Assembly (NCBI GenBank): GCA_002897995.1
Contig: BDTT01000059.1
Span: 1 to 64,000 of the forward strand
Source of the DNA: a bacterium BMS3Bbin10
Lineage (GTDB): Bacteria > Pseudomonadota > Alphaproteobacteria > Rhizobiales > Methyloligellaceae
DNA: 64,000 nucleotides
Direction: 5' to 3'
Of this stretch, positions 41,478 to 45,532 are shown piece by piece. Numbering within the stretch: position 1 is the first letter of the stretch; every line of letters begins with the position of its first letter. The notes beneath the pieces are model-generated. The model saw nothing but the letters and a program-made list of their open reading frames with translations. It had not been told where the DNA came from and made no database searches. Both the position numbers and the translations under genes were made by a program.

Positions 41478-42653
41478 ATGGCACTGCCGACATTTAATAT
41501 GCGCCAGCTTCTTGAAGCAGGCGTGCATTTTGGACATCAGACACACCGCTGGAACCCGAAGATGGGACCCTACATCTTTGGATCGCGGAACAAGATTCAC
41601 ATTATCGATCTGGCGCAAACCGTGCCGCTCTTGCATCAGGCGCTCGTCACCGTATCGGACACGATCGCCAAGGGCGGGCGTCTGCTGTTTGTCGGCACCA
41701 AGCGGCAGGCTTCCGATGCGATTGCGGAAGGCGCCAAGCAATGCGCGCAATATTATATCAATCACCGCTGGCTCGGCGGGACGCTGACAAACTGGCAGAC
41801 GATTTCAAAATCGATAAAACGCCTGCGTCAGCTCGATGAATTGCTCGAAGGGGAGAGCCAGGGTCTCACCAAAAAAGAATTGCTGCAACTGACGCGCGAA
41901 CGCGAGAAGATCGAACGCGCCCTGGGCGGCATCAAGGACATCGGTGGCTTGCCCAACCTTCTGTTCGTGATCGACACCAACAAGGAAGCCATTGCCATCG
42001 CCGAGGCGCGCAAGCTGAATATTCCGGTTATTGCTATTGTCGATACAAACTGCAATCCGGATCCGATCACGTTTCCGATCCCCGGAAACGACGATGCGGC
42101 CCGCGCCATCACCCTCTATTGCGATCTGATTTCCCGCGCTGCGATCGATGGCATCGAGCGCGCGCAGGGTGCGTCCGGCATCGATATTGGCAGTGCGGCG
42201 GACCCGGCGGCTGAAGCAGCCCTGACGGATGATGGCGAACCGGCGCCGAAACCAAAGAAACAGGACGCTGAAAAGGAAGCCAAGGGCAAGGACGACGGGA
42301 AGCCGGCCTCGGGCGGGGATGAAAAGGAAGCCGATAAGGCGGATGCCGCCAAAGAGCCCGCCACGGACAAAAAAGAGGCCAAAAAGCAAGACGAGACTCC
42401 GGCCAAGATAACTGGCGGATTTGAAAAACTCGAAAAACCGGATGGTGAGGCGGACGACCTCAAGGAACTCACCGGCGTCGGCCCGGTACTGGAAAAAACA
42501 CTCAATGAGTTCGGTATTTTCCACTACCGGCAAATCGCCGCGCTGGAAAAAGCGGATATCGCGGAGATTGATGAAGCGCTCAATTTCAAAGGCCGCATCG
42601 AGCGCGACGACTGGATCAAACAGTCCAAGGAACTGGCAAAGAAAAGCGATTGA
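41478..42653 (+). CDS. rpsB: 30S ribosomal protein S2 with long C-terminal extension
   Basis: A 391-residue protein. Residues 1 to about 235 are a complete S2 ([59 protein letters not shown]). Residues of about 236-325 are a charged low-complexity linker rich in Lys, Asp, Glu and Ala. Residues 326-391 form a small helical module starting [22 protein letters not shown], with the GVGP helix-hairpin-helix motif. Typical S2 is about 240-260 residues. AAAAAAGGAG precedes the ATG. Similar modules occur at the end of some alphaproteobacterial ribosomal proteins. Confidence 0.96.
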
Positions 42654-42714: not shown

Positions 42715-43641
42715 ATGACGACCGTTACTGCAGCGATGGTGAAGGAATTGCGCGGGAAGACCGGCGCGGGAATGATGGACTGCAAGACAGCGCTTACCGA
42801 AAATGCCGGGGATATGGAAGCTGCCGTCGATTGGCTCAGGACCAAGGGGCTGTCCACGGCCGCCAAGAAAGCGGGTCGCGTAGCGGCAGAGGGCCTGGTT
42901 GGCCTGTACACCGACGCAAACAGGGGCGCCCTGGTTGAGATCAATTCGGAAACGGACTTCGTGGCCCGCAATGACCAGTTCCAGGATATGGTCTCCACCA
43001 TCGCCAAACTCTCTCTCGATGCCGAAGATACAGACGCATTGTCCGCCATGCCCTACGGCAAGGGCGATCTCAGCGTTGAAGATTATCTCAAGGAAATGGT
43101 TGGCTCGATCGGCGAGAATATGGTGCTGCGCCGAAGCGAGCGTCTCCAGGTCTCCGATGGCGTGGTCGGCAGCTATGTCCACAATGCGGCAGCCCCGGGG
43201 CTGGGCAAGATCGGCGTTCTGGTCGCCCTGGAATCGTCAGGAGACAAAGGCAAACTTGAGGATATCGCCCGCAAGCTCGCGATGCATGTGGCGGCGGCAA
43301 ATCCGTTAGCCGTAAGTCAGGAAGGAATTGATCCGGCGGTCATTGAACGCGAACGTGCGGTGCTGAGTGAGCAGGCCAGGGAATCGGGCAAGCCTGAAAA
43401 CATTATCGAAAAGATGGTCGAGGGCCGGTTGCGCAAATATTATGAGGAAGTTGCGCTCCTGTCCCAGGTCTATGTGATTGACGGCGAAAGCAAGGTGGCC
43501 GATGCGTTAAAGGCGGCGGCGTCCGAAATTGGAAGCGAGATCAAAATTACCGGATTTGCGCGCTTTGCCCTGGGCGAAGGCGTGGAAAAGAAAGAGGGGG
43601 ACTTTGCCGCCGAGGTCGCGGCGGCGGTCACCGGAAGCTAG
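42715..43641 (+). CDS. tsf: Translation elongation factor Ts
   Basis: A 308-residue guanine-nucleotide exchange factor for EF-Tu. The N-terminal UBA-like domain has [21 protein letters not shown], and the core has EGLVGLYTD, the second signature [10 protein letters not shown], then the coiled subdomain and C-terminal strand. The TAG stop at 43639-43641 lies in the CTAG that opens the 268-bp inverted-repeat element. In most proteobacteria pyrH would follow, but it is missing here. Confidence 0.97.
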
Positions 43642-43905
43642 AGCAACTTCCGACCATACGGGACCGTTTGATGGAGTCAAATCCGCCCACTCTGCCAGGC
43701 GCGGTGCGCCGCGCAACCTGGTTGGTTGGGCAAGCGACGCAACGCCGCGGATGGGCGGATTTGGCCCACCGAAGGCCGGTTTTTCGCGCCCGCTGGACTG
43801 CGTTGCGGTCCGCTTGTGGTCGGCCAGACCGCGGCGCGAACCGCGCCTTGCCAGCAAACGCGAAAAATCGGTCAAACGATTCCGTATGGTCGGAAGTTGC
43901 TCTAG
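43638..43905. mobile_element. MITE-like element with 34-bp terminal inverted repeats
   Basis: A 268-bp non-coding element bounded by CTAG at both ends (43638-43641 and 43902-43905). The terminal inverted repeats are 34 bp with 32 matches; the first 24 positions are perfect, beginning CTAGAGCAACTTCCGACC. Inside, the perfect 12-bp arms CAAATCCGCCCA (43678-43689) and TGGGCGGATTTG (43752-43763) form a second hairpin. It encodes no protein, so it fits a non-autonomous element moved by a transposase in trans. A TA or CTAG target duplication would fit the IS630 or IS5 families. The left end supplies the tsf stop codon. Confidence 0.88.
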
Positions 43906-44158
43906 GCCGCGCGCACCTGCGGGCGCACGCCGGCACGCACAATTTGGCACTCGCCCTTGCCCGTGAGGACGGAATACACATAATTGGATCATTGACCTCG
44001 TTGGCGAGTGCAGTCTCCATATGGAATTATTGTTTGATGCGCGGGGGAGGGAAGTGTAGGTCGCGCAGGGTTCAGGCGGGACAATGCACTGTTCGGCGCC
44101 TGGCTGCGGCAATCGGTAATCCGGTCCCGGCGCATGGCTGCTCATAGGGAGTGCGAAC
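43906..44158 (+). other. Tsf-frr spacer without pyrH
   Basis: This 253-bp stretch between the inverted-repeat element and frr holds no recognisable gene. I looked for pieces of UMP kinase in all frames and saw none. The last bases, ATAGGGAG, give the frr ribosome-binding site, and a promoter for frr must lie here or inside the element. Confidence 0.6.
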
Positions 44159-44716
44159 ATGTCCAAGTTTGATCTCAAGGATTTAGAACGGCGCATGAAT
44201 GGCGCCGTGAATGTGCTCCAGAAGGAGTTTGGCAGTTTGAGAACGGGTAGAGCGAACGCCAGCCTTCTGGACCCGGTAACCGTTGACGCCTATGGCACAC
44301 CCATGCCGCTCAATCAGTTGGCGACGGTCCTGGCGCCGGAGCCGCGCATGATTACCGTTCAGGTTTGGGACAGGTCGCAGGTCGATGCGGTCGACCGGGC
44401 GATCCGCGAAGCGGATCTTGGCCTGAATCCGATCGGGGAAGGCCAGGTGCTGCGCATTCCCATTCCGGAACTGAATGAGGAGCGGCGTCAGGAAATGGCC
44501 AAGCTCGCGGCCAAATATGCCGAACAGGCGCGTGTCGCCGTTCGCAATGTGCGGCGCGATGGCATGGAACAACTCAAACGCCAGGAAAAAAATGGCGAGA
44601 TCGGCCAGGACGAGCAACATACTCATGGCGCCGAAGTTCAGGAAATCACCGACGCCACCATCAAGAAGATAGATGAAGCGCTTTCGTCCAAAGAAGAAGA
44701 GATCATGCAAATCTGA
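44159..44716 (+). CDS. frr: Ribosome recycling factor
   Basis: A 185-residue protein of standard length that splits post-termination ribosomes with EF-G. Motifs are [34 protein letters not shown] near the hinge and the C-terminal helix [32 protein letters not shown]. Its usual upstream neighbour pyrH is absent. It is followed 57 bp later by uppS. Confidence 0.97.
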
Positions 44717-44773: not shown

Positions 44774-45532
44774 GTGGCAATACCGGAACAAAATCTCAGC
44801 CAGACAGCGAGCAGCCCCGCGATGCCGCAACATGTCGCCATTATCATGGATGGCAATGGGCGCTGGGCCGCAAAGCGCGGATTGTCGCGATCGGAAGGCC
44901 ACAAGCACGGCGTGGAGAGCGTCCGGGCCGCGGTGAGGGCGGCAATTGACCTGAACCTTCCATATCTGACGCTGTTCAGTTTCTCGTCGGAAAACTGGTC
45001 GCGGCCCCAATCCGAAATCCGTGATCTCATGACCCTGCTGCGCCGCTTTATCCGGACGGACCTGGCGGATTTGCACAGGCAGGGCGTGCGCATCCGCATC
45101 ATCGGCGCGCGCAAAGGCATCGAAGGGGACATCGTGCGGCTGATCGAGGACGCCGTCGCCCTGACCTCCAAAAATTCCGGCCTGCAACTGACCGTGGCTT
45201 TCAACTATGGCTCGCGCGATGAGATCGCCCGCGCGGCAAGGCGCATGGCTGAACTGGTGCGGGAGGGCAAGCTCGAACCCGAAGACATTACGCCGCAAGC
45301 CATGAGCGAATTTCTCGACACCTCGGGACTGCCCGACCCGGATCTGCTGATCCGCACCAGTGGCGAGATCCGCCTGTCCAACTTCCTGCTCTGGCAATGC
45401 GCCTATACCGAGTTTGTCTTCCTCGATATCTACTGGCCGGATTTCACGGGCGATACTCTGGCGTCGGCAATCGAGTTATTCCGCGACCGGGAGCGCAGAT
45501 TTGGCGGCTTGCGGGCAGGGTCCACCGCGTGA
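44774..45532 (+). CDS. uppS: Undecaprenyl diphosphate synthase
   Basis: A 252-residue cis-prenyltransferase that makes the C55 carrier lipid for peptidoglycan and O-antigen. The catalytic Asp is D26 in IIMDGNGRWA, with GHKHGVESVR, SFSSENWSRP and the C-terminal LLIRTSGEIRLSNFLLWQ. GTG 44774 is used here; an ATG at 44822 just before PQHVAIIMDG would shorten it by 16 residues. Its end overlaps the cdsA start. Confidence 0.95.
   Translation: MAIPEQNLSQTASSPAMPQHVAIIMDGNGRWAAKRGLSRSEGHKHGVESVRAAVRAAIDLNLPYLTLFSFSSENWSRPQSEIRDLMTLLRRFIRTDLADLHRQGVRIRIIGARKGIEGDIVRLIEDAVALTSKNSGLQLTVAFNYGSRDEIARAARRMAELVREGKLEPEDITPQAMSEFLDTSGLPDPDLLIRTSGEIRLSNFLLWQCAYTEFVFLDIYWPDFTGDTLASAIELFRDRERRFGGLRAGSTA

Follow-up and report, generated by a model that had tools for sequence, protein, structure and literature searches.

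How has a bacterium come to lack pyrH at the place where this gene is expected, and what takes over the work of its product? The gene, whose product makes UDP, is normally indispensable. The question is raised by a stretch of 64,000 nucleotides, here called the window, which belongs to contig C59 of a draft assembly (G000; 3.18 Mb in 137 contigs, with a recorded completeness of 97.7%). The gene order in it is dnaE, rpsB, tsf, an element with terminal inverted repeats (TIRs), frr, and uppS. On the plus strand, rpsB (41478–42653) encodes ribosomal protein S2 with a long C-terminal extension of the PRK12311 type, tsf (42715–43641) encodes EF-Ts (over the cut-off of NCBIfam TIGR00116), frr (44159–44716) encodes the ribosome recycling factor (over the cut-off of NCBIfam TIGR00496), and uppS (44774–45532), the next gene in the conserved order, encodes a polyprenyl diphosphate synthase. 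As a preliminary description of this DNA had observed, there is no pyrH frame between the end of tsf at 43641 and the start of frr at 44159.

The gene has been lost in every genome of the genus sample. This sample consists of eight drafts (G000–G007) that are 80–99% complete, four of them at 97–98% and one at 99%; it is counted as eight genomes, not fifteen, because the named loci L101–L107 share DNA with G001–G007. When the eight genomes were searched with the PyrH profile TIGR02075 (cut-off 243.9 bits), none had a match above this threshold, and the remaining matches reached at most 36.7 bits. The contigs of G000 yielded a single match (36.6 bits), in a frame that is an aspartate kinase according to NCBIfam. 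The search also covered 17 further genomes of the family, and each of them has PyrH: the match exceeds the cut-off in 12 and is fragmentary or split in five (E ≤ 2.5e-42). Elsewhere in the order, 15 of 16 genomes from other families exceed the cut-off; the exception, G030, has no Frr match either, which points to a probable assembly gap. When 80 named loci containing frr were compared, 73 had a pyrH match upstream of it; the other seven belong to the sisters of the same genus. The proposal that pyrH was lost from the tsf–frr interval is therefore well founded, whereas the companion idea that it had moved elsewhere is not supported by the whole-genome profile search, in which none of the eight genomes had a PyrH above the cut-off.

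An assembly error in this interval had been named as an observation that would undo the loss. In all seven sister genomes, tsf and frr lie on a single contig with no pyrH between them, separated by 162–279 bp that hold no TIR of the element; the spacer of the window measures 517 bp, or 253 bp minus the insertion. Judging by the titles of the sister records (SZUA-148, IB1_shallow, PL25a, B33T3L11, UBA2767, OFTM203, and OFTM332), the genomes probably stem from more than one sampling project, so that a single assembly error common to all of them is unlikely. A related possibility is that pyrH was relocated out of the operon and sits in gaps of the drafts, none of the eight being complete, and G030, from another family, is an example of a gap that mimics a loss. 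Against this, eight drafts would each need to miss the same relocated gene, and every genome of the genus has an intact native site on a single contig, with a decayed relic in it. We consider this relocation very improbable.

Relatives of PyrH in the AA-kinase family were considered as hidden copies of it in G000 and rejected. The family search in this genome returned three frames only, which were named argB, aspartate kinase, and proB. An extra AA-kinase frame of 325 residues occurs in G002, G004, G005, and G007; the G004 copy is a carbamate kinase, and the longer piece of an extra fragment pair in G002 is proB. The carbamate kinase frame of G004 (L278:695–1663) is preceded by a frame of 218 residues.

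A small part of pyrH appears to have stayed behind in the spacer. Compared with pyrH of L117, the window spacer gives an ungapped match of 40 nt at 43947–43986 on the plus strand, with a score of 24 that none of 200 dinucleotide shuffles reached (shuffle maximum 17). The codons of this stretch read ALALAREDGIHII, matching the PyrH sequence AIALARDNxIPII, and those of L106 read AIALAREGVIPII. In the nucleotide test, six of the eight genus spacers beat all 200 shuffles; the spacers of L102 and L105 were each equalled by one shuffle, and the best match of L105 lies elsewhere in its spacer. At the protein level, most single spacers were not significant, with 2 to 181 of 200 shuffles reaching the score. 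Judged by its nucleotide similarity, the spacer has kept a 40-bp relic of the 3′ coding end of pyrH, which is newly found here. We propose that the ancestor of this Hyphomicrobiales genus lost pyrH out of an rpsB-tsf-pyrH-frr operon. Comparison with relatives shows that the lost segment runs from just past the end of tsf into the final portion of pyrH, and one deletion would be the simplest course.

The relic encloses a putative promoter for frr. The eight tsf–frr spacers of the genus can be aligned only poorly (53% mean column identity); in their core, CTTGC and CATAATT are invariant, and TTGCYS-N16-CATAAT is present in all eight. In the window, the candidate promoter TTGCCC-16-CATAAT occupies 43957–43984 on the plus strand, within the pyrH relic. 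It is one of two promoter-like sites, compared with 0.1 expected by shuffling, and the second hexamer of the core lies 87–205 bp upstream of frr in each of the eight genomes.

The same core has a counterpart inside the intact pyrH of 12 genomes of the family. There, the Leu codon is CTT and the Ile codon is ATA in 12 of 12 cases, counts that are not independent because the genomes are related. Both codons are uncommon in the background of the pyrH stretches (CTT in 148 of 1267 Leu codons, ATA in 58 of 934 Ile codons). The stretch of 10 pyrH codons that begins at this counterpart ranks first of 227 in synonymous conservation (0.77 versus a mean of 0.54). The second hexamer ends in ATAAT in 10 of these 12 genes and in ATAGT in the other two (G009 and G014).

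These observations modify the expectation that frr would need a new promoter after the loss. There does seem to be a separate promoter for frr, but it looks old, because the same bases already lie within the pyrH coding sequence of relatives. It is possible that the core was conserved for another reason, as an RNA element or a protein-binding element: sigma-70-like matches alone are no proof of function, and the promoter is read from the sequence. However, the hexamers and their spacing fit a promoter, the site stands upstream of frr in all eight genomes, and at gathering scores Rfam recognises four tRNAs in the window and no other RNA family. We regard such another role as rather improbable. 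Our preferred reading is that frr probably kept an old promoter that was embedded in pyrH and predates the loss. The end of pyrH would already have held this promoter within its coding sequence, and selection on it would have preserved the stretch as the sole recognisable remnant of the gene; the piece may have survived, in other words, because the promoter was preserved.

Operons are known in general to contain promoters that lie within the 3′ end of a preceding gene. The promoter-like stretch of pyrH resembles these, as it lies in coding sequence with conserved uncommon codons; unlike them, it has outlived its host gene, of which little else remains. This suggests a route by which an operon may lose a gene without silencing its neighbour, namely, through survival of the embedded promoter. 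An embedded promoter-like stretch (CTTGCC...ATAAT) is also seen in pyrH of the more distant loci L109, L118, and L128, and it may therefore be a wider feature of frr regulation in the Hyphomicrobiales.

We next consider the element that adjoins tsf. The TIRs reported at the start of the interval are present, with arms of 34 nt at 43638–43671 and 43872–43905 that are 94% complementary. The element had been described as 268 bp long with CTAG at both ends; a TIR element is indeed present, but the element proper is 262 bp (43641–43902, no strand assigned). The difference arises because TA is duplicated at the target (43639–43640 and 43903–43904), and CTAG on either side represents the target together with its duplication. 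The nearest sister, L101, displays the empty site AACTAGGCC, where the window reads CTA-GAGCAAC...GTTGCTC-TAGGCC. The insertion target is the stop codon of tsf, and the TAG at 43639–43641 is rebuilt by the element. The transcript of the element is predicted to fold into one long hairpin (−178 kcal/mol, z = −12.7). From its TIRs, its other copies, the empty site in L101, and the hairpin fold, we class it as a MITE-like, non-autonomous element.

Five near-full copies occur in G000, including that of the window, and the four others have 86–95% identity to the 268-bp stretch. TA is found at both flanks in four of the five; L003 has CA on the left. Further remains in this genome are partial copies, including half copies cut off at contig ends, and TIR-only palindromes. 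No transposase gene lies inside the element, 262 bp being too short for one. One kind of MITE stems from Tc1/mariner-IS630-type elements, and a TA target inside CTAG is linked to IS630. The window element is like such MITEs in being short and multicopy, with no recognised gene, near-perfect TIRs, and a TA target in CTAG; it differs from them in that the places examined revealed no transposase parent. On inspection, no reading frame beside the TIR-only sites L010, L011, and L017 was recognised as a transposase, and plasmid and phage records gave no match to the MITE. The TIR-only palindromes themselves are about 50 bp long and consist of the two terminal repeats without an interior (L011, G000:C103 near 44146; L017, G000:C114 near 75959; L010, G000:C122 near 5787).

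Recombination between copies of the element had been suggested as the event that removed pyrH. The seven sisters speak against this, as they have neither pyrH nor the element at the site. The loss of pyrH is thus older than the insertion, and the MITE came in after it, so that neither the loss nor the repair can be put down to the MITE. In our account, the MITE would have entered the tsf stop codon later, in the lineage of G000 and upstream of the promoter, leaving tsf, the relic promoter, and frr intact. The MITE itself is ordinary; the unusual feature is that genomes of ordinary size have naturally lost an enzyme that is normally essential.

Which enzyme, then, phosphorylates UMP in this genus? 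Three families of NMP kinases were searched in it, Adk (PF00406), Cmk (PF02224), and Tmk (PF02223). One full-length Adk is present in seven of the eight genomes, and none was found in G003, which is 80% complete. The eight other PF00406 matches in the genus are all partial and all fall within cmk places; no second full-length PF00406 protein, as a eukaryote-type UMP/CMP kinase would be, stands beside Adk in the eight genomes. Each of the eight has one full-length Cmk and one Tmk. A second PF02224 match in G007 covers 37 positions and lies just over the cut-off (27.9 versus 26 bits); weaker partial matches occur in G000 and G006, and two of the three are at adk places. The Cmk of G000 scores 189.8 bits with TIGR00017 (cut-off 135.55), which marks it as a bacterial (d)CMP kinase. 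The suggestion that a different UMP/CMP kinase had replaced PyrH is therefore not supported, since the genus holds no second full-length protein of the Adk, Cmk, or Tmk family. With no spare NMP kinase found, a resident enzyme becomes the first suspect, Cmk before the others, or else an unrecognised one.

Polyphosphate kinases of the PPK2 type offer another way of producing UDP, from UMP and polyphosphate, and some PPK2 enzymes accept UMP. PPK2 is present in seven of the eight genus genomes, with one to four matches each; it was not found in G003 (80% complete). It is, however, no less frequent in PyrH-bearing relatives, of which all 10 searched have it (again with one to four matches), so nothing ties PPK2 to the loss of pyrH. 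As a genus-specific substitute, PPK2 was rejected for this lack of specificity, and we consider its role here quite doubtful.

The case for Cmk draws on E. coli. In the portion of PMC3386227 available to us, overexpression of cmk allowed deletion of the entire pyrH locus, and the deletion strain grew even uninduced, which its authors attribute to leaky expression or carry-over. The accessible text of PMC3603445 gives Cmk a low UMP kinase activity and cites an earlier mssA/smbA suppression. By this precedent, the resident CMP kinase of the genus may now act on UMP as a UMP/CMP kinase.

The sequence of Cmk itself was compared with that of control proteins. Relative to the divergence from the outgroup, the stem branch of the genus is longest for cmk (0.42), followed by tmk (0.30), frr (0.25), and adk (0.15), in a comparison of seven genus and seven other genomes from which G003 was left out. 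Columns that separate all eight genus members from 18 relatives number six in Cmk and three each in adk and frr. Against the same seven relatives, genus-specific columns number 17 of 209 in Cmk, 15 of 207 in Tmk, nine in frr, and four in adk, which places Cmk hardly above Tmk. The nucleotide-contact residues reported in the available text of PMC3603445 (Arg41, Arg110, Arg131, Asp132, Asp185, and Arg188) are unchanged in the eight Cmks. One strict genus-specific change, Asp129 to Glu, falls at a position that is invariant in the 18 relatives. The same change is found in the Cmks of the solved structures 3r8c and 37fc, whose lineages we take to have PyrH. Ser101, presumably with a role in sugar binding, is Ala in five of the eight genus members and Ser in all 18 relatives; Ala is also found in the PyrH-bearing G042. 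As proof of a new specificity, the site changes in Cmk were set aside, being weakened by the Tmk control and by 3r8c and 37fc. The signs of a takeover in the sequence of the genus Cmk are mixed and weak. The genus Tmk (L211, L212, L214–L216, and L218–L220) has a long stem too, and it carries two strict genus-specific changes, Ser to Thr and Ala to Gly, in alignment columns 38 and 41.

The UMP kinase could instead be an unrecognised protein, possibly acquired horizontally, that belongs neither to the AA-kinase family nor to those of Adk, Cmk, and Tmk. The searches of the genus found no known UMP kinase, and the unchanged contact residues of Cmk named in PMC3603445, as far as its available text goes, agree with this possibility. 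However, no candidate was seen, and a new gene would be unnecessary if the dose of Cmk suffices, as in E. coli. We therefore treat the unrecognised protein as a tentative and less likely explanation. Resident Cmk would be the likeliest enzyme to phosphorylate UMP in the genus, an assignment that rests on analogy with E. coli and for which we rate the chances as about even. The broader statement, that the genus has no UMP kinase of any known family and relies on a bifunctional Cmk or an undescribed enzyme, with pyrH trimmed to the frr promoter, seems to us somewhat better than an even bet. The account as a whole, from the loss of pyrH through a surviving embedded promoter and a takeover by Cmk to a later MITE, is one in which our belief and our doubt are evenly matched.

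The situation resembles the replacement of pyrH in E. coli (Bergmiller, Ackermann and Silander 2012, PMC3386227), as far as the available text describes it: pyrH is gone, a resident Cmk-type kinase is present, and no homologue of PyrH is needed. In contrast, the loss in this genus is natural, genus-wide, and found in genomes of 2.4–5.4 Mb, and the role of Cmk is putative. The consulted part of PMC3386227 proposes that essential genes whose loss can be compensated in the laboratory are those lost in evolution, and the genus-wide natural loss would be a field test of this proposal for the same pyrH/cmk pair. The paper also implies that pyrH, for which a suppressor exists, already belongs to its group of genes that lack full conservation or are dispensable in certain taxa, and absence of pyrH somewhere is thus not unheard of. 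The literature searched, at the level of titles and the first lines of abstracts, yielded no case in which pyrH had been lost or replaced naturally. PyrH is regarded as an antibacterial target (abstract of PMC12847342), given the supposed dependence of bacteria on it. The genus Cmk offers an opportunity to learn whether, and by what means, the specificity of a CMP kinase can widen to include UMP.

Across the class, 388 genomes with a completeness of at least 97 were drawn; 375 of them have some PyrH match and 358 exceed the cut-off. The 22 genomes without a PyrH match better than 1e-20 include a single one larger than 1.8 Mb, G000. Genomes without PyrH in this draw include those of the families f64 (six of six), f74 (six of seven), f80 (six of six), and f124 (one of one); except in f80, these genomes give no PyrH match at all. 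Like these reduced alphaproteobacterial genomes, the genus has no PyrH match over the cut-off; unlike the genus, whose genomes are of ordinary size, they measure 0.9–1.8 Mb and possibly belong to host-dependent or streamlined bacteria. The f80 genomes (G100, G175, G234, G283, G326, and G403) are single-contig assemblies of 1.2–1.3 Mb with PyrH matches of only 6.3e-9 to 5.2e-11, far below the cut-off, and the loss in this family is possibly independent. In four of the six f80 Cmks (L258–L263), DGRD is replaced by EGRD or GGRD; convergence with the genus Cmk was considered for this replacement and set aside, the f80 Cmks being divergent overall.
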